Below, piece after piece: positions 2,636 through 47,728 of a stretch of DNA of 64,000 nt (positions within the stretch are counted from its first letter, which is position 1; every line of letters begins with the position of its first letter). The translations under genes and the position numbers were made by a program. Origin of the DNA: Pistricoccus aurantiacus (GTDB lineage Bacteria; Pseudomonadota; Gammaproteobacteria; Pseudomonadales; Halomonadaceae); assembly GCF_007954585.1 (NCBI RefSeq), contig NZ_CP042382.1:372001-436000 (forward strand). The letters run 5' to 3'. The notes beneath the pieces are model-generated. The model did not search any database. It was given only the letters and a program-made list of their open reading frames with translations, and was not told the origin of the DNA.

Positions 2636-5043
<2,408 letters not shown>

Positions 5044-40404: not shown

Positions 40405-40728
40405 ATGACGTTCGTTGTCACCGAAAACTGCATCAAGTGCAAATACACCGACTGCGTGGAAGTCTGCCCGGTGGACTGCTTCTATGAAGGTCCCAACTTT
40501 CTGGTCATTCATCCCGACGAATGCATCGACTGCGCCCTCTGCGAACCGGAGTGTCCGGCGGAAGCGATCTTCGCCGAGGATGAATTGCCGGAGAGCCAGC
40601 AGGAATTCATCGAGATCAACGCGGAACTCGCGGAAGAATGGCCGAATATCTCCGAGAAGCAGGATCCCCTGCCGGACGCGGAGGAATGGGATGGCAAGCC
40701 CGGCAAGCGAGAGTTGCTTGAGAGGTAA
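40405..40728 (+). CDS. fdxA: Seven-iron ferredoxin FdxA
   Basis: FdxA carries one [3Fe-4S] and one [4Fe-4S] cluster and acts as an electron carrier. The 107-residue protein [56 protein letters not shown] has the cysteine spacing of this class and the usual C-terminal extension ([32 protein letters not shown]). It is a single gene. A 10-bp stem with a nine-base loop (40735-40763) just after the stop may end the transcript. Confidence 0.97.
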
Positions 40729-40734
40729 TGCAAG

Positions 40735-40763
40735 GCTTCGCGGCAGCCTTGGAGCCGCGAAGC
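40735..40763 (+). terminator. Hairpin after fdxA
   Basis: GCTTCGCGGC (40735-40744) pairs with GCCGCGAAGC (40754-40763) around a nine-base loop, seven bases after the fdxA stop codon. No T run follows, so it is a possible rho-independent terminator of poor quality or an mRNA end-protecting hairpin. It separates fdxA from the convergent toxin gene. Confidence 0.45.
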
Positions 40764-40802
40764 AGTGTTAAAACTGGCCGACGACAGCGCCTGATCAAAT
40801 GA

Positions 40803-41084
40803 CTACCGCTCATCTTCCAGACCATGCCATATCCGGAGAATGATGATGGCGCTGGCATGCACTGAATAGCGAACAACGTACTTGTCAAACACCATGTCTC
40901 GGACTGACTCCGGCACCGGCGCCAATTCAACCGGTGCTCCCAATTTGGGAAAATCCGGTAGCAACTCGATTTTAGTCACCAGCTTCGCGGCGACTCTGGC
41001 AGCCGCGGAAGGATGGTGGACTGCGATGAACTCCCTGAGGCGCTTCAAATCTTCAATGGCTTCATCCGTGTAAACCAGTTTCAC
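40803..41084 (-). CDS. RelE/ParE-family toxin
   Basis: The 93-residue protein MKLVYTDEAIEDLKRLREFIA has the ParE/RelE fold pattern: an N-terminal strand and two helices (AIEDLKRLREFIAVHHPSAAARVAAKLVTKIELLPDFPKLGAPV), then strands (MVFDKYVVRYSVHASAIIILRIWHGLEDE). The closing R-x-W-H-G-x-x-D is the family signature. Family members poison gyrase (ParE) or cut mRNA (RelE); the sequence resembles ParE more. Its start overlaps the antitoxin stop by ATGA, as expected in a toxin-antitoxin operon. Confidence 0.9.
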   Translation of the reverse strand: MKLVYTDEAIEDLKRLREFIAVHHPSAAARVAAKLVTKIELLPDFPKLGAPVELAPVPESVRDMVFDKYVVRYSVHASAIIILRIWHGLEDER

Positions 41085-41353
41085 CTACCTGACTCCGGCG
41101 CGTCCCGCTCGTTATCGGCTCCCCAGCTATTGAGCCAATCCTGCACCTCGCCGGCGTCGACGACTTTTCCCTGAGCGGCAGACTCCATCGCCTCTAACGT
41201 TTGTTGCCAACGCTCCTGCTCGCGCTGCTGCTTTTCAATGTATTCCGACAATGCCTGATTGATCACCCAGCCCTTGCTCCGGTGGAGCCTGCTAGCGATT
41301 GCCTCGAGATGTTGCTCAACCTCTGCCTGAAGACGAACTGTGGTGACACTCAT
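41081..41353 (-). CDS. Ribbon-helix-helix (CopG/ParD-like) antitoxin
   Basis: The 90-residue protein MSVTTVRLQAEVEQHLEAIASRLHRSKGWVINQALSEYIEKQQREQ has the ribbon (TTVRL) and two helices of a CopG/ParD-type DNA-binding domain. A charged C-terminal part that would bind the toxin follows. It is upstream of and overlaps the ParE-like gene by four bases. The ATG at 41353 is used; a GTG at 41356 is also possible. A 23-base dyad upstream is the likely operator. Confidence 0.88.
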   Translation of the reverse strand: MSVTTVRLQAEVEQHLEAIASRLHRSKGWVINQALSEYIEKQQREQERWQQTLEAMESAAQGKVVDAGEVQDWLNSWGADNERDAPESGR

Positions 41354-41375
41354 CACAATACCCTCGAATTCGATG

Positions 41376-41398
41376 ACTACACTGTATTACAGCATAGT
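41376..41398. promoter_or_regulatory. Operator-like dyad of the ParD/ParE-like module
   Basis: ACTACACTGTATTACAGCATAGT is centred on 41387, with CTGTA/TACAG and ACTA/TAGT inverted arms and two mismatches per half. It lies 23 bases upstream of the antitoxin start, where ribbon-helix-helix antitoxins bind to repress their own operon. CTGT and ACAG are only three bases apart, so this is not an SOS box. Confidence 0.5.
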
Positions 41399-41495
41399 CG
41401 ACAAGGGTGTGCCAAAGACTCGAGGCTAAGCGAGCAAAAGTTAACGGAGCGTAGCTGGGCCTGCTCTATTGTCTTGTTATGCCCGCTTGCGTATC

Positions 41496-41518
41496 ATTGT
41501 ACAATCACTTTGTACAAA
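41496..41518 (+). promoter_or_regulatory. TGTACA-type operator of the Phd/VapC module
   Basis: Two palindromic TTGTACAA-like sites (TGTACA at 41498-41503 and 41511-41516) lie 13 bases apart, centre to centre, 19 bases before the antitoxin start. YefM/Phd-type antitoxins are known to bind paired TGTACA cores with about one helical turn between them, so this is a likely autoregulatory site. Confidence 0.6.
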
Positions 41519-41534
41519 AAAGAGATTACTGAAC

Positions 41535-41765
41535 ATGCTAACTGTCAATATTAGCGATCTCAGAGCCAACCTATTGAAATATCTTGAAAAGGCTAGCCAC
41601 GGCGAGCAAATTACCGTTACCACCAACGGTAGAGTTTTAGCCACTATCGCTCCTCCAACAGACAAGAAAGCGCTGGCGAAGAAACGGCTGAGCGAACTCT
41701 CTGCTACTGCCAAAATCAATGATGTAACTAGCCCACTGGACAACCAATGGGATGCAATGCTGTGA
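41535..41765 (+). CDS. Phd/YefM-family antitoxin
   Basis: The 76-residue protein MLTVNISDLRANLLKYLEKAS has the Phd/YefM DNA-binding fold (ISDLRANLLKYLEKASHGEQITVTTNGRVLATIAPP). A disordered tail (KALAKKRLSELSATAKINDVTSPLDNQWDAML) follows that would wrap the toxin. It is coupled to the PIN-domain toxin, with overlapping ends. The start at 41535 is preferred to one at 41469 because it fits the family and lies after the operator. Confidence 0.88.
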   Translation: MLTVNISDLRANLLKYLEKASHGEQITVTTNGRVLATIAPPTDKKALAKKRLSELSATAKINDVTSPLDNQWDAML

Positions 41766-42157
41766 TTTTACTCGACACCTGTGCAATCGTTTGGGACGCT
41801 CTTGACAAAGCCAGGTTGACTGATAAGGCCAAAGCTGCAATCGCAAAAGCAGATGAGCACAACGCCCTGATAATTTCCGATATTTCGATATGGGAAATAT
41901 CAATGCTTATCAAGCGTTCTCGCATTGAAGTTGCAACTAGCGCAGCAAATTTCGTGAACCTATTTCTAGAATCTCGCAATATATCCGTTGTTTCCATTTC
42001 TCCAGAAATTGCGGAACTTTCAACCAACCTTGACTCCCAAATCAACAACGATCCCGCAGATCGGATTATTGCAGCGACTTCAATTATTTATAACGCGCAA
42101 CTCATTACAGCCGATTCGAACCTGCGCCAATCCACCCTCATTGACACGATCTGGTGA
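41747..42157 (+). CDS. PIN-domain VapC-family toxin
   Basis: VapC toxins are Mg2+-dependent ribonucleases, often cutting tRNA or rRNA loops. The protein (136 residues from ATG 41747, or 131 from a GTG at 41762 that overlaps the antitoxin stop as GTGA) has the four acidic PIN residues in place: VILLDTCAIVWDAL, ISIWEISMLI, NNDPADRIIAATS, and LITADSNLRQ. It is downstream of the Phd-type antitoxin. The base composition is AT-rich compared with fdxA or mutS, which suggests acquisition. Confidence 0.9.
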   Translation: MGCNAVILLDTCAIVWDALDKARLTDKAKAAIAKADEHNALIISDISIWEISMLIKRSRIEVATSAANFVNLFLESRNISVVSISPEIAELSTNLDSQINNDPADRIIAATSIIYNAQLITADSNLRQSTLIDTIW

Positions 42158-42249
42158 AGTATAACGCCTTACATCATTCTCTCTTTTTCTTCACATACCG
42201 GCAATTAAGCGGTCTTAATTTTCTGTATCGTCAGTAATTATATTGGCCT

Positions 42250-42315
42250 TTAACCATTCCCACGGTTTTTCCATTCCTTCAACGCGAGAGGTAGAAACTT
42301 GAGCTTATAGGTCAT
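42250..42315 (-). pseudogene. Truncated RelE/StbE-type toxin remnant
   Basis: Directly after the orphan antitoxin, an ATG at 42315 overlaps its final codons. It reads MTYKLKFLPLALKEWKNRGNG and then stops at 42250. The first 16 residues match the standard opening of StbE/RelE toxins. The rest of the about 85-residue toxin is missing, but a short downstream frame at 42187-42170 reads KRENDV, like the toxin C-terminal GKREN-x-D-V motif. This is a toxin gene with an internal deletion, too short to appear as a normal ORF. What is left cannot form the nuclease fold. Confidence 0.7.
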
Positions 42316-42556
42316 CCAAGGACACCGATACCGCCTGCTCCTTGTCTCCTAGACGCTCCTCAACCAGCTTGGCGAGTTCGTAATCCTCAATTATATCCAT
42401 CAATGCCTCGTAGGTATCTGCTGGAATCAGGTAAGCAGCCAGCTTGTTGTGGTTCAAAACTGAAATTGGCGAACCACTGGCCTGAGAGAGCAGCGCGGAC
42501 GGATTCTTCTTTAATTCTGAAATGGTTACGGAAAAGTCAGCAAGAACTTGGCGCAT
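42305..42556 (-). CDS. Orphan StbD/Phd-type antitoxin
   Basis: The 83-residue protein MRQVLADFSVTISELKKNPSALLSQASGSPISVLNHNKLAAYLIPADTYEALMDIIEDYEL is a Phd/YefM (StbD-like) antitoxin, complete and without frameshift. Its partner toxin immediately downstream is broken, so it is a solitary antitoxin. The start at 42556 follows from family alignment. An inverted-repeat-rich region just upstream is a probable self-operator. Confidence 0.85.
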   Translation of the reverse strand: MRQVLADFSVTISELKKNPSALLSQASGSPISVLNHNKLAAYLIPADTYEALMDIIEDYELAKLVEERLGDKEQAVSVSLDDL

Positions 42557-42557
42557 A

Positions 42558-42589
42558 AAGCCCCCTATTAGGGCCAATATTTAGGGCTT
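42558..42589. promoter_or_regulatory. Inverted repeats upstream of the orphan antitoxin
   Basis: AAGCCC (42558-42563) and GGGCTT (42584-42589) are inverted arms enclosing the perfect dyad CCCTA-T-TAGGG (42563-42573). They sit one base upstream of the antitoxin start, where Phd/YefM antitoxins bind. An autoregulatory operator is the simplest reading. Confidence 0.45.
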
Positions 42590-42685
42590 ATTATAGGTCA
42601 TATTTTACCGCTCCTTTGTTCCCTCGTGGGGCGGCATAGCGCCGCGCTCTGCGGAAATCTGTCCGACAGTAGCGCCTTTTTAGCA

Positions 42686-43473
42686 TTACCTTTTTCTTTG
42701 CCCGACAAAAAACAGATTCTTGGTTCTCTTTGGAAACTCGTCTTCTTTGTAAAGTTTCATGATGTCCTTCGCTATAACCTTATCGAGAGCAGAAAAATGA
42801 CGATATAAAGTCGTACTATAGGTTAGAACTTCAACTTTCTTTGAATATTTAAACCCCTCAACTGTCCGTATGTTTGGGTTCGTGGGCAACTTGCATCTTA
42901 CAATGGATTCGCTCCCATGAGGAATGACATCTGCGTATACACGACTGTCTGCTGGTGTGTAATGAATAAAGCAATCTCTATAATCCTTGAATCGATTTAC
43001 CCATCGTTCTTTTGCTTTCCGAAGGGCATTAACTGGTCCTTCAAGTTGTTTTTTTGCACATAGCTTGTTGAATGACACGGGAGCTTGATCAGCGAATGAC
43101 ACTCCAACCATTCTAGCCATTAAATCGAGAGCAGCACTAAGAGCCATGAGGTATGCCTCAAAATCCCAATAAATTTGATGCGTTATTGAGTTTGAAATGC
43201 CCATCCTTAAGCTAGAATATCCATTTTCACTAGCGTTTTTTTAATAATATTTCGAATAATTGAGTACTTTTCATGAATACTCTTCAACCTAAACTCTGCA
43301 TGGTTAAGATGATACCTATAGAAACGAGGGTACTCTCTTGCAAACCAGTAGAACTCGAATAACTCATCATCGTCGTCATCCTCATAAATCTCGCACCTTA
43401 TTTTATCTAGTGTCTTAACCAGTGCAGGAGAGAATTTTGAGAACTCAGGTAAGTTTGGTATTACGATTTCTAT
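42686..43473 (-). pseudogene. Accessory protein with R-x4-H (HEPN-like) motif, split by a frameshift and lacking a normal start codon
   Basis: Two adjacent minus-strand frames read as one protein of about 262 residues. The first (43473 to 43207) reads EIVIPNLPEFSKFSPALVK and on through EYPRFYRYHLNHAEFRLKSI, ending just past a run of seven A at 43242-43236. The second is open from that same run (reading KNASENGYSSLRMGISNS) to the stop at 42686. One extra A would join them without loss. The second part has helices (DFEAYLMALSAALDLMARMVGVSF) and KDYRDCFIHYTP, which fits the R-x4-H ribonuclease motif of HEPN domains. In frame, the position six bases after AAGGAG is ATA, not ATG. I do not recognise a named family, and the HEPN call is from the motif and helical pattern only. 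Confidence 0.6.
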
Positions 43474-43497
43474 GACATACTCCTTGTGATGCTAATG

Positions 43498-43556
43498 CCG
43501 CCGTAACCGGCGGGAAAACCGCGTAGCGGTTTGTAGGTTCAGCCCACGAAGTGGGC
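43498..43556. repeat. Three tandem hairpins between the ATPase gene and the split gene
   Basis: CCGCCG-taac-CGGCGG (43498-43513), AAACCGC-gta-GCGGTTT (43516-43532) and GCCCAC-gaa-GTGGGC (43542-43556) are three perfect stems of 6, 7 and 6 bp with three- or four-base loops, in a row and on either strand. They fill the 94-base gap after the ATPase stop. They could end or process the ATPase message, be a REP-like element, or form a small structured RNA. Confidence 0.6.
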
Positions 43557-43572
43557 GACGGTTGACAGCTTT

Positions 43573-45006
43573 GTTGTACGTCATTGGCGCTGCAAGAATC
43601 CCGCTAATTGTGCATGCCGCCTGAGAGTAATTTTGACCTGATCCTTGATTGAGGATGGCATTGTATTTTCGGATGCGAAAACTTTAAGCTCGATAATTCG
43701 ACGCTTTTCGCCCGCCTGTGTTGGCTCCACGAACACATCTGCACGCACGGAACCATATTCAGTGCGTATCGGTACTTCGTGTTCCGCATCAAGATTCAGA
43801 GCACGCAATATTTTCGCCAAACGTTTCCCGATTAGTGTTGGGCTCGTTGTGACCGTCTCGTACCAAGCTTTTGCATCATCAGCCCGCTGTGATTCACGTT
43901 CACGCATTGGAGCATAATCGTATGAGTTCCAATTACCGGATACCAAGTGGAAGAAGTGAGTGTTTCTAAACCGTTCAAGGTTTGCTGCAGCAAGTTGACG
44001 ATCGTCATTGCCAAGATCAAGGCAGAGCTTATGTAGGTCGGCTGCTCGAATTGGTATCAACCGAAAATCAAAATATAGACGTGCACGGTTGAACTCACGG
44101 AGTGGCAGCGTCCTTCGATCGTCGTCATTTAACTCAGTGTGCCAGGCGTCCCAGTTCAGTCGATAACCGGCGCGTGCCCGAGTGAATTGCGCCACTCGTT
44201 GACTTCGAGTCGAATCAGCCACAGGCCATAGCAGAATAACCTGATACTCAGATAGATTTTGTAGAGGTTCAATATGCTCAGCTAGAGAATCACCTACTGA
44301 TAGAATTGTGCGCCCTAGAGTATCCGCACCACGCGCAATTTGGCGAATATCATCTTCAATCACGCCAAAGTCTGCTAATGGGGTTTCGCTGTTATGAAAA
44401 GAAAACGTCTCTTCAACGATCTGTGGCCACTCTTCTTTGGCGGGGCCGAGAACCTCAAAATTCTCATTAGCCAAAAGCCGCCTATTTCGAGTTGTTGCCC
44501 TGACCAATTGTTGTTGGAACTCGCTGCTCGTAGTAAGCCAAATGAAGACAATGAGTTCGCCGGCCAACTCCGCGCGGTCAAGTAGGCTCAAGTGTTCGAC
44601 GAACTGCGTGGGAATTCTTTCTTTCCCTTCAACGTTTTCCTCATACTGGTCGACAATAGCAACCAACAAGCGTTTATCTGTATGTTGTCTCTCTTTACGA
44701 ACCCTCTGCAACAGAGCTGGAGACCCCTCAATTTCATCGCGAGATAGAACAAACGCACATACATCGGGCATATGCGTACCAAGCTCACGAGTTGCGCAGC
44801 TCTTTCCTACTCCACTCTCCCCATAGATAGGCAAAAAGCGAATGCCACCACTTATGGTCATCGACCTATAGGCACGATCGATCTGAGAAATCAAATCTCG
44901 ATTCGGAATCAGCCGACCACGGAAAGCTTCATCGAGATCTTCGTATCGGGCTGGAAGGGAAACTGGCATATCAGGAATTTACCTCTGGTAGTTTATGACG
45001 TACAAC
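43573..45006. repeat. 11-bp inverted repeat bracketing the ATPase gene
   Basis: GTTGTACGTCA (43573-43583, including the stop codon of the ATPase gene) and TGACGTACAAC (44996-45006, 27 bases upstream of its start) are perfect inverted copies. An AGCT beyond each arm extends the match with a two-base offset. The pair encloses only this gene. It may mark the ends of an inserted unit, but no target duplication was seen. Confidence 0.5.
43581..44969 (-). CDS. P-loop ATPase with C-terminal PD-(D/E)XK nuclease-like domain
   Basis: The 462-residue protein is not one I can name. It has Walker A GESGVGKSCATRE (residues 50-62, K56) and a Walker B-like strand LLVAIVDQYEEN (D107). A helical middle follows, rich in aromatic and charged residues. 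Its last 60 residues read VRADVFV (D411) then RRIIELKVF (E427-x-K429), followed by a Lys/Gln helix (KDQVKITLRRHAQ). This is the order of a PD-(D/E)XK nuclease active site. An ATPase coupled to such a nuclease is a recurring design in anti-phage systems. The gene is AT-richer than the core genes around it and sits in a toxin-antitoxin/IS block. A defence role is inference. Confidence 0.7.
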   Translation of the reverse strand: MPVSLPARYEDLDEAFRGRLIPNRDLISQIDRAYRSMTISGGIRFLPIYGESGVGKSCATRELGTHMPDVCAFVLSRDEIEGSPALLQRVRKERQHTDKRLLVAIVDQYEENVEGKERIPTQFVEHLSLLDRAELAGELIVFIWLTTSSEFQQQLVRATTRNRRLLANENFEVLGPAKEEWPQIVEETFSFHNSETPLADFGVIEDDIRQIARGADTLGRTILSVGDSLAEHIEPLQNLSEYQVILLWPVADSTRSQRVAQFTRARAGYRLNWDAWHTELNDDDRRTLPLREFNRARLYFDFRLIPIRAADLHKLCLDLGNDDRQLAAANLERFRNTHFFHLVSGNWNSYDYAPMRERESQRADDAKAWYETVTTSPTLIGKRLAKILRALNLDAEHEVPIRTEYGSVRADVFVEPTQAGEKRRIIELKVFASENTMPSSIKDQVKITLRRHAQLAGFLQRQ

Positions 45007-45085
45007 AGCTTAATAGCAGACTAGCTCGATTTTCTCACAGGCGTCATCGAAACCTAAATTTCCAAGAGCAAAAAACAGGCGATTA

Positions 45086-46183
45086 GGCGGCCTCAATGAC
45101 CAAGTGCAACACCTGATCCATCAGGTATCGTGTTGCCATGACTTGCTACTATCACCATCTTTCTGCTGAAGACCGCGCCGCTATCATGATGATGCGAGCC
45201 TCTCACTCGATCCGGGCTATCGCCAGTCACTTGGGTCGCTCACCCAGTACGGTGTCACGGGAATTCAGGCGTCATACCGTCACTCCTGTAAAGGGATATG
45301 ACGCTAGCCTGGCGGGCTATCGCGCTCGGCTGGCACGTCATCGCCAGCGTCGCTTACCCAAGTTGCATCCCGACGGCGAACTGTTTGAACTGGTGGTCTA
45401 TCTGCTGCGTAAATACTGGTCACCCGAGCAGATAAGCCGCACACTGAAGCGTATGTTTCCTGATCATCCCGACCGCCAGGTCTCCCATGAGTCCATCTAC
45501 AACGCGCTTCACGTGATGCCGCGAGGCACGCTGAAGAAGGAGCTCATTGCCTGTTTGAGACAGGGCAATGGCAAGCGTCGGCCGAGACGCCAGGGCAAGG
45601 ATCGACGCCAGCAGATTCCCGATCTGGTCAGTATCCACATGCGCCCGCCCGAGGTTGAAGACCGGCTGATGCCAGGGCATTGGGAGGGCGACCTCATCAT
45701 GGGCGCCAACAACCGCTCTGCTGTCGGCACGCTGGTCGAGCGCACCACCCGCCTGGTGATCCTGGCGAAGCTGGACGGTACCACGGCTACCGCGGCGGCT
45801 ATCGGATTCAGTGACAAGCTCAACGAGGTGCCGCGCTCGCTGCGCCTGTCCATGACCTACGATCAGGGCAGAGAAATGACGAAGCATGCCGAGATTACTC
45901 AGAAGACTGGCACAGCGATCTACTTTGCGGATCCCCACAGCCCCTGGCAGCGAGGCTCGAATGAAAACACCAATGGTCTGTTGCGGCAGTATTTGCCGAA
46001 GGGCACGGACTTGTCGGTCTACAGCCAGGAAGAGCTTGACGTGATCGCCGACTCACTGAATACGCGGCCGAGAAAAACACTGGACTGGAGAACGCCATTG
46101 GAGGTTTATGCCGATGTGCTCAAGAAGTCCGTGGCTGGGCCGAACACCCTTCAATAGTGTTGCGCTTGGAACTTGAGGCCGCC
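45086..46183 (+). mobile_element. IS30-family insertion sequence, complete
   Basis: The element is 1098 bp. Its 27-bp terminal inverted repeats (45086-45112 and 46157-46183) match at 23 positions and begin GGCGGCCTCAA. The flanking TTA at 45083-45085 and 46184-46186 is a three-base target duplication, as expected for the family. One intact transposase gene fills the inside. The element therefore looks capable of moving, and it separates the candidate defence genes from eno. Confidence 0.93.
45138..46157 (+). CDS. IS30-family transposase
   Basis: The 339-residue protein opens with an IS30 helix-turn-helix (HLSAEDRAAIMMMRASHSIRAIASHLGRSPSTVSREFRRH). It has the catalytic DDE triad at WEGDLIMG, MTYDQGREM and the RGSNENTNGLLRQYLPKGTDL block, the last being the family hallmark. 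Length is near the usual 320-380 residues and there is no interruption. Its stop lies at the inner edge of the right terminal repeat. It is the only transposase gene in the window. Confidence 0.96.
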   Translation: MTCYYHHLSAEDRAAIMMMRASHSIRAIASHLGRSPSTVSREFRRHTVTPVKGYDASLAGYRARLARHRQRRLPKLHPDGELFELVVYLLRKYWSPEQISRTLKRMFPDHPDRQVSHESIYNALHVMPRGTLKKELIACLRQGNGKRRPRRQGKDRRQQIPDLVSIHMRPPEVEDRLMPGHWEGDLIMGANNRSAVGTLVERTTRLVILAKLDGTTATAAAIGFSDKLNEVPRSLRLSMTYDQGREMTKHAEITQKTGTAIYFADPHSPWQRGSNENTNGLLRQYLPKGTDLSVYSQEELDVIADSLNTRPRKTLDWRTPLEVYADVLKKSVAGPNTLQ

Positions 46184-46351
46184 TTATTTATCGTCTTTTA
46201 ATGGTTTGCATCTCGGAAAAAGTGTGCAGTGGTGACGTATTTTCCGTGCACGCTACCGCCCGGGCACGCAACCGACTTCTTTTATTGTCATTTCTGACTT
46301 TTCCTCTAATTTATTAACAATTATCTCAACATCTTTAATTATTTATACAAT
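46184..46351. other. Intergenic region between the IS30 element and the eno terminator
   Basis: These 168 bases hold no recognisable gene. The first 80 bases are the right flank of the IS insertion and include a phrase CGTATTTTCCGTGCACG with no clear function. The later part is AT-rich and runs into the eno terminator. Confidence 0.5.
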
Positions 46352-46374
46352 AAAAAAGGACCCGGAGGTCCTTT
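46352..46374 (-). terminator. Rho-independent terminator of eno
   Basis: On the minus strand AAAGGACC pairs with GGTCCTTT around a TCCG loop (46355-46374). The following T residues (six in all, counting the two Ts at the base of the stem) make a canonical terminator 41 bases after the eno stop codon. Confidence 0.82.
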
Positions 46375-46414
46375 CTATTTTCTGCCTAAAATAGCGGCCT
46401 GTATTTTTACCGAA

Positions 46415-47728
<1,314 letters not shown>

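Follow-up and report, generated by a model that had tools for sequence, protein, structure and literature searches.

Here we describe a gene from Pistricoccus aurantiacus whose predicted product joins an ATPase to a PD-(D/E)XK-type domain and for which there is strong evidence that it is an integron cassette. It is located within a stretch of 64,000 nucleotides (contig NZ_CP042382.1, positions 372,001 to 436,000 of the forward strand), here referred to in its full length as the window, and occupies window positions 43581 to 44969 on the minus strand. The fusion had been claimed in an original prediction made from the letters of the window, and this claim is supported by residue conservation, by weak family matches that converge, and by the predicted fold. 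What is new here is the integron cassette as the vehicle of the ATPase-nuclease gene, a cassette that can be recognized from its end repeats despite the missing integrase and the degenerate-looking attC site.

The reading frame is intact, with 462 codons and no internal stop, and the gene is present in a single copy in the P. aurantiacus genome (3.78 Mb, single contig). The 462-amino-acid protein has a P-loop with a canonical Walker A sequence, GESGVGKS, at residues 50 to 57 (G50 to S57, including K56; 44799-44822, minus strand), followed by D107 as the first residue of a DQYEE segment. Near its C-terminal end are D411, E427, and K429 (codons 43737-43739, 43689-43691, and 43683-43685, minus strand), with 15 residues separating D411 from E427. 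All of these motifs had been named in the original prediction, and each was verified. Within the ATPase part, G50, S52, G53, G55, K56, D107, E110, and E111 are invariant in all 11 rows of alignment A2. Within the C-terminal part, E398, D411, E427, and K429 are invariant in the 10 domains of alignment A4 and are also found in a homologue from a Pseudarthrobacter plasmid (P0003), so that D411, E427, and K429 are retained in 11 of the 11 C-terminal domains compared. Given this invariance across homologues, the occurrence of the motifs is more than chance.

A model of the full-length protein had a mean predicted local distance difference test score (pLDDT) of 79 and a predicted template modeling score (pTM) of 0.64. 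Its N-terminal part adopts an AAA+ fold, for which the best Foldseek match was an archaeal ORC2 protein (E value, 1.2e-5), and the highest Z score in a VIA-align comparison of this part was 11.0 (204 residues aligned; 3.6 Å). AAA+ proteins also dominate the Foldseek lists for the full model, for PDB and viral structures alike. The Pfam family nSTAND1 weakly matches 11 of 11 members (best E value, 3.5e-6), with scores that fall below its cutoff of 27.1 bits for the window protein (22.9 bits) and for the Pseudarthrobacter protein (26.9 bits). On the basis of the model, the PDB comparison, and this family match, we delineate an AAA+/STAND-like ATPase domain at approximately residues 24 to 234 (44268..44900, minus strand). 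It is followed by a conserved middle region at approximately residues 240 to 355 (43905..44252, minus strand), which contains the conserved residues W248-P-V, N294-R, and R297-L-Y-F-D and which is not assigned to a family; the first part of this region, through residue 282, can be aligned with a distant homologue at locus L003.

Conservation, models, and profile matches delineate a C-terminal PD-(D/E)XK-like domain at residues 361 to 462 (43584..43889, minus strand). In the full-length model, the order of its elements is helix 361-375, helix 377-390, strand 394-402, strand 407-415, strand 423-428, and helix 441-456, and the predicted helix-strand-strand-strand-helix order is that of the PD-(D/E)XK core. 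D411 and E427 are located on two adjacent strands (407-415 and 423-428), and the model shows a restriction-endonuclease-like end. The invariant D...(E/Q)-x-K arrangement with a supporting acidic residue, by which PD-(D/E)XK domains are recognized, is present. When the 10 isolated C-terminal domains were scanned against Pfam, PDDEXK_9 matched eight, Mrr_cat six, and HSDR_N_2 four, all below the cutoff, and nine further families matched one or two domains each. A profile search of the PDB gave the restriction enzyme BpuSI as the best match (E value, 0.23), with its AD and EVK falling on D411, E427, and K429; ranks 2 and 3 (E values, 0.63 and 0.65) were unrelated proteins, and searching the PDB with the full sequence yielded no informative match. 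A VIA-align comparison of the C-terminal domain with 126 chains listed 11 entries with Z scores of at least 2 (maximum, 3.4). One of these, AF1548, is titled "unknown function"; we take the 11 entries to be proteins with a restriction endonuclease fold (among them a Holliday-junction resolvase, DrdV, AbaSI, and Can2). Because these individually weak matches combine with invariant residues, the C-terminal part is very likely a PD-(D/E)XK nuclease, as predicted from sequence and fold.

The gene is flanked by a 13-bp exact inverted repeat, TGTTGTACGTCAT, one arm of which overlaps the stop codon while the other lies 25 nucleotides before the ATG. Just these two copies of the repeat are present in the whole genome. 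An integron cassette begins with bases that pair with the R'' core of the attC site belonging to it. Repeat and flank comparisons identify the upstream arm (44995..45007) as the cassette start, with an R'-type core, GTTGTAC, and the downstream arm (43572..43584) as carrying an R''-type core, GTACAAC; the core at the start is thus complementary to the core at the end, as expected for cassette ends. An exact flanking inverted repeat of at least 10 bp was found for 4 of 135 mechanically picked open reading frames (ORFs) from the window, four other stretches of the same genome, and the Aromatoleum homologue locus (L004). The four are the gene described here, its Aromatoleum homologue, an insertion sequence (IS) transposase with the element's own ends, and vapC, with a repeat of 10 bp. 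The Aromatoleum arms, GTTATACGTCA and TGACGTATAAC, are identical in position to the window arms, GTTGTACGTCA and TGACGTACAAC, and this 11-bp repeat differs from the window repeat by a single base on both arms, a compensatory change that preserves pairing. No such flanking repeat was found at the other 9 of the 11 loci compared, one of which (L005) is cut off. We had also considered an element that moves by itself and is bounded by terminal repeats of its own, and rejected this idea because the repeat matched integron cassette ends. The original prediction had reported neither the 13-bp repeat nor an attC-like site or an integron context.

Directly behind the gene, at 43491..43579 (minus strand), is the best match in the window to an attC covariance model (20.5 bits; E value, 0.002, the E values of this short-calibrated model being rough). 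The model was trained on eight attC-type sites, six from Aromatoleum, two from P. aurantiacus, and none from the window. Both L boxes are present, with spacings as in an Aromatoleum attC site; this pattern, which was composed after both sites had been seen, occurs once in the window and in none of 100 shuffles. We tentatively interpret this attC-like site as closing the cassette. A second and weak model match (41425..41482, minus strand; E value, 0.18), near the Phd-VapC pair described below, is a possible attC remnant. At 11 other homologue loci (L002 and L005 to L014), the model matched nothing with an E value better than 1.4, and Rfam gave no match in 40500 to 46500. Elsewhere in the P. aurantiacus genome, sites not used in training were matched near integrases or integrase fragments at L030 (E value, 7e-6), L029 (1.4e-5), and L028 (0.0021).

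In P. aurantiacus, the gene lies in a gap of 5,686 bp between fdxA and eno. Eight relatives were fetched for comparison: in seven of them, the two genes are 143 to 1,172 bp apart, and in the eighth, no fdxA was located within the stretch. None of the eight stretches matches genes of the block. Because of the cassette ends, the attC-like matches, and this insertion relative to relatives, we conclude that 40.8 to 45.0 kb is an inserted, IS-bounded remnant of a cassette array without an integrase, referred to as a CALIN (PMC7923331). The original prediction had placed the gene in an accessory block with toxin-antitoxin genes and an IS element. A ParE/RHH pair, a Phd-VapC pair, a lone Phd, and an IS were all found, and the block is best explained as the array remnant.

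Two full integron integrases are encoded in the P. aurantiacus genome, at contig positions C1:1213205-1214131 and C1:3701354-3702283. Among the 10 integrase-family matches in the genome, these two are above the cutoff, and none of the 10 lies inside the window (C1:372001-436000). Partial integron-integrase matches at C1 340038-340277 and 346685-346888 (within L030) lie approximately 25 to 32 kb before the window, and the attC-model match at L030 6825-6921 (E value, 7e-6) is near these fragments, which are perhaps the remains of the integron that fed the window region. The first cassette beside the integrase at C1:1213205-1214131 starts with GTTATGCCTCAT and ends with ATGAGGCATAAC, the same end anatomy as that of the window cassette. 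The Aromatoleum homologue is 73% identical, and L004 has four attC-type sites (321-413, 1837-1902, 2252-2344, and 3014-3078), two of which flank the gene. These sites were called by a simple script (1837-1902 by eye) and not by a curated model, and the script also gave doubtful matches within genes. One full integron integrase is encoded in the Aromatoleum genome, on a different contig. Near its end, this contig has at least 80 bp in common with the end of L004, which suggests that the two may belong to one array.

The protein is encoded at 13 loci, namely, the window, the Pseudarthrobacter plasmid, and 11 loci in genomes of Aromatoleum, Aeromonas, Xanthomonas, Paenibacillus (three), Brevibacillus, Streptomyces (two), Cryobacterium, and Flavobacterium, three of which (L005, L011, and L012) cover the protein in part. 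The homologues are 52 to 76% identical to the window protein and represent four phyla. The 11 genome loci came from a search with a two-row alignment; a single-sequence search of the genome contigs found none. Viral contigs gave no match with the single sequence or the two-row alignment, phage records gave none, a plasmid search gave one, and there was no DNA-level match in E. coli. At E values of 0.001 or lower, and with the P. aurantiacus genome itself counted each time, matches were obtained in 2 of 58 relatives, 3 of 369 genomes of the class, and 1 of 398 genomes of the phylum. The family is thus rare, with no further convincing member in these sets except for the distant homologue at L003. 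This ORF (L003 1408-2937) encodes 509 amino acids with 26% identity over residues 24 to 282 and lies beside an integrase-like ORF; given this homologue, the family may be wider than its present members. By eye, the C terminus of the L003 protein contains a D...E-x-H pattern. Two further matches, likewise judged by eye, were rejected as members: that at L015 sits in an unrelated P-loop protein, and that at L016 overlaps an apparent cytidylate kinase. In a 12-row tree, the window, Aromatoleum, and Aeromonas proteins group together (support, 100/99), and the Xanthomonas copy groups with those of Actinomycetota (94/100, not starred). From this tree, transfer between phyla is likely.

No Pfam match above the cutoff and no NCBIfam or PHROGs match was obtained for the window protein. 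The original prediction had been unable to place it in a named defense family, and the NCBIfam result and the scattered nature of its PADLOC matches agree with this. Nor did we find the family described in the literature, in a limited search that left the main integron-defense papers outside it. Several known systems bear some resemblance to it. PDDEXK_9 (PF08011), the commonest weak C-terminal match (8 of 10), also occurs in the DUF1703/AAA-ATPase_like proteins described in PMC1913061. However, the window member scores 15 bits against a PDDEXK_9 cutoff of 25.5 bits, AAA-ATPase_like is absent from the Pfam matches obtained for the window protein and the other members, and the Walker A motif is the canonical GESGVGKS here, whereas PMC1913061 gives an arginine-bearing sequence, RPRRFGKS. 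Mrr-type restriction nucleases (Mrr_cat, PF04471) are weakly matched by 6 of 10 C-terminal domains, but the domain is fused to an ATPase here, and Mrr_cat reached 19.4 bits against a cutoff of 21 where a score was printed. AVAST (Avs) proteins consist of an N-terminal effector, a central STAND module, and a C-terminal repeat sensor, and they likewise combine a STAND-like P-loop NTPase with a nuclease effector in a single chain. In contrast to this layout, the protein described here has 462 amino acids, begins with the ATPase, and ends with the nuclease. The gene also resembles the defense gene cassettes of integrons in that a candidate defense protein is carried on a single-gene cassette, although the window holds an array remnant without an integrase. 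Anti-phage genes have been reported in integron cassettes, and in the large chromosomal integron of Vibrio cholerae, approximately 20% of cassettes without a predicted function encode anti-phage systems missed by bioinformatics, according to PMC12444791.

We also examined the genes around the homologues, scanning 108 of 123 listed ORFs (53 plus 55), which were picked mechanically and a few of which may not be genes. The results given here cover the first 25 of 50 families (PADLOC) and the first 25 of 38 and 25 of 45 families (Pfam). The original prediction had looked to a recurring link with defense genes. Among the matches listed, defense-type neighbors were assigned in at least 3 of the 12 other loci, a count that has no matched control and for which enrichment is not claimed. 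On the Pseudarthrobacter plasmid, the neighbors include TIR, caspase, and ApeA domains and DUF3644. In Paenibacillus rigui (L006 128-1204), a divergent 358-amino-acid ORF for an AbiK-type reverse transcriptase starts 0.26 kb upstream (E value of 6.3e-51 to AbiK in the PDB) and is shorter than the 601-amino-acid AbiK. In Brevibacillus (L007 7546-9718), a dGTPase-like ORF ends 1.0 kb upstream (E value of 2e-68 to a dNTP triphosphohydrolase), with a nucleotidyltransferase-like ORF also upstream; the dGTPase-like gene could be a housekeeping gene instead. PADLOC matches among neighbors that are not tied to a locus include those to PDC-S19, PDC-S66, SAVED_HNH, SspH, PDC-S07, PDC-M36A, and RT-Protease_XI, and the remaining Pfam matches among those listed are largely to metabolic and regulatory families. 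Homologues consistently found in an unrelated housekeeping pathway would have spoken against the original prediction, and no common housekeeping pathway was seen across the loci. Besides the family itself, the loci yielded 13 pairs of similar neighbor ORFs. Nine of these pairs connect Paenibacillaceae loci, and each of the remaining four includes a gene from L010 or L014 that is of regulator or kinase type.

A defense role is plausible in analogy to the published function of cassettes and from the architecture, the mobility, the solitary occurrence, and the three defense-type settings. In the model that we propose, a single-gene cassette would encode an ATPase (residues ~24 to 234), a middle region (~240 to 355), and an Mrr-like PD-(D/E)XK nuclease (361 to 462). 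The ATPase and middle parts would detect a ligand or a state of DNA that is related to an invader, and ATP binding or hydrolysis would lead to assembly or release of the nuclease, which would cut nucleic acid by means of E398, D411, E427, and K429 with a metal, resulting in protection from phages and other mobile DNA. In at least two Pseudomonadota genomes, a cassette would be the form in which the gene spreads; elsewhere, it would spread by other means. We infer the nuclease activity, its coupling to ATP, the trigger, the substrate, and the defense function, the ATPase and nuclease chemistry being predicted from residues and fold. As a whole, this reading, of an integron-cassette AAA+/STAND ATPase with an Mrr-like nuclease acting against invaders, is probable, by a modest measure. 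The chances are about even that the homologues form a family, as yet without a name, of compact immune proteins encoded by single genes, each of which starts with an AAA+/STAND switch and ends with an Mrr-like nuclease, and that this family crosses phyla and has been packaged as an integron cassette. If this is true, sensor, switch, and effector would be united on one 1.4-kb unit. Many integron cassettes are without a known function, and this family, which is compact, conserves its putative catalytic residues, and has no above-cutoff Pfam match, is a candidate that is easy to test.

Several observations weigh against this proposal. When the C-terminal domain was modeled alone, the third strand was lost (pLDDT, 72; pTM, 0.54; moderately confident), and the Foldseek matches of this separate model had E values above 1. 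The attC-like strand folds into three main hairpins and not one long stem, and because of this fold and an R' core that reads ATTAGC and not GTTRRRY, the site is probably degenerate. PADLOC matches of the window protein are weak and spread over six families (best E value, 0.0043). At 9 of the 12 other loci, no defense neighbor was assignable among the matches listed, and no widely shared neighbor gene was found in the loci compared. Finally, a consensus scan found no promoter-like site in 43400 to 45140, and since no integrase promoter lies beside the gene either, it may be silent in this strain.

Other roles are conceivable for the same architecture. The protein could be an accessory of DNA transposition or recombination, in which an AAA+ regulator is joined to a nuclease end like that of TnsA, and have no part in defense. 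TnsC is one of the many AAA+ proteins that the AAA+ part resembles (PmcTnsC in Foldseek; E value, 9.1e-4), and there is a weak match between the Pseudarthrobacter homologue and phrog_296, a phage transposition family (E value, 0.0021); however, no transposase or recombinase is common to the homologue loci, and a cassette would be moved by the integron integrase and not by itself, which leaves this role unlikely. Its location among toxin-antitoxin genes would also fit a toxin-like stabilizer of the array, that is, an ATP-controlled nuclease that harms the cell once regulation is lost and is kept together with the adjacent toxin-antitoxin genes, but the lack of an antitoxin-like partner common to the homologue loci makes us give it slightly less credence still.

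Two further possibilities concern the nuclease-like end itself. Some PD-(D/E)XK folds act on RNA, and proteins whose R-x4-H motif is HEPN-like are encoded close to the gene at the window, Aromatoleum, and Aeromonas loci; it is therefore conceivable that this end acts on RNA, such as tRNA or phage mRNA, and leads to translational arrest, with the rest as in our proposal. The leading profile matches are to DNA restriction families, however, and we regard an RNA target as improbable to the same degree as a stabilizing role. With its weak nSTAND1 match in 11 of 11 members, the protein might instead be a STAND-type regulator without catalytic activity, in which the nuclease fold is retained solely to bind DNA. 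The retention of four putative catalytic residues in 11 of 11 members from four phyla makes this very improbable.

The IS element that forms the upstream bound of the array (45082..46187, plus strand), which we take to be of the IS30 type, has 31-nucleotide terminal inverted repeats that are 84% complementary and encodes HTH and rve transposase domains. On the other side of the gene, a possible second cassette (42683..43497, minus strand) starts with TTAGCAT and ends with ATGCTAA. This assignment is weak and comes from the 7-bp inverted repeat, and there is no attC-model match at its end. Within this possible cassette lie an open frame of 89 codons for which no start codon was seen (43207-43476) and an ORF for a 172-amino-acid protein (42686..43204, minus strand) with an R-x4-H motif, RDCFIH, and a weak Apea-like HEPN match (E value, 0.076). 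Proteins with this HEPN-like motif are encoded near the gene at each of the three loci that make up its closest clade (window 42686-43204, Aromatoleum L004 2-319, and Aeromonas L005 689-1303). Of 194 ORFs examined, 8 have the motif pattern, including these three; a functional link or a common kind of cassette are both possible. The toxin-antitoxin genes comprise the Phd-VapC pair (41469..42157, plus strand), a ParE toxin with an RHH antitoxin (40803..41356, minus strand), and a lone Phd/YefM antitoxin (42305..42577, minus strand), and the case for reading these and the HEPN-like ORF as cassettes is weak. In L028 of the same genome (15880-16956), a 358-amino-acid ORF with a 9-bp end repeat is followed by an attC-type site, one of the eight used to train the model, and is probably another cassette. 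The ParE/RHH stretch (40780-41399) matches, at the DNA level, an unannotated stretch of a large replicon of Halomonas sp. PA16-9 (79.7% over approximately 600 bases) and also a Marinobacter plasmid (79.4% over 155 bases).
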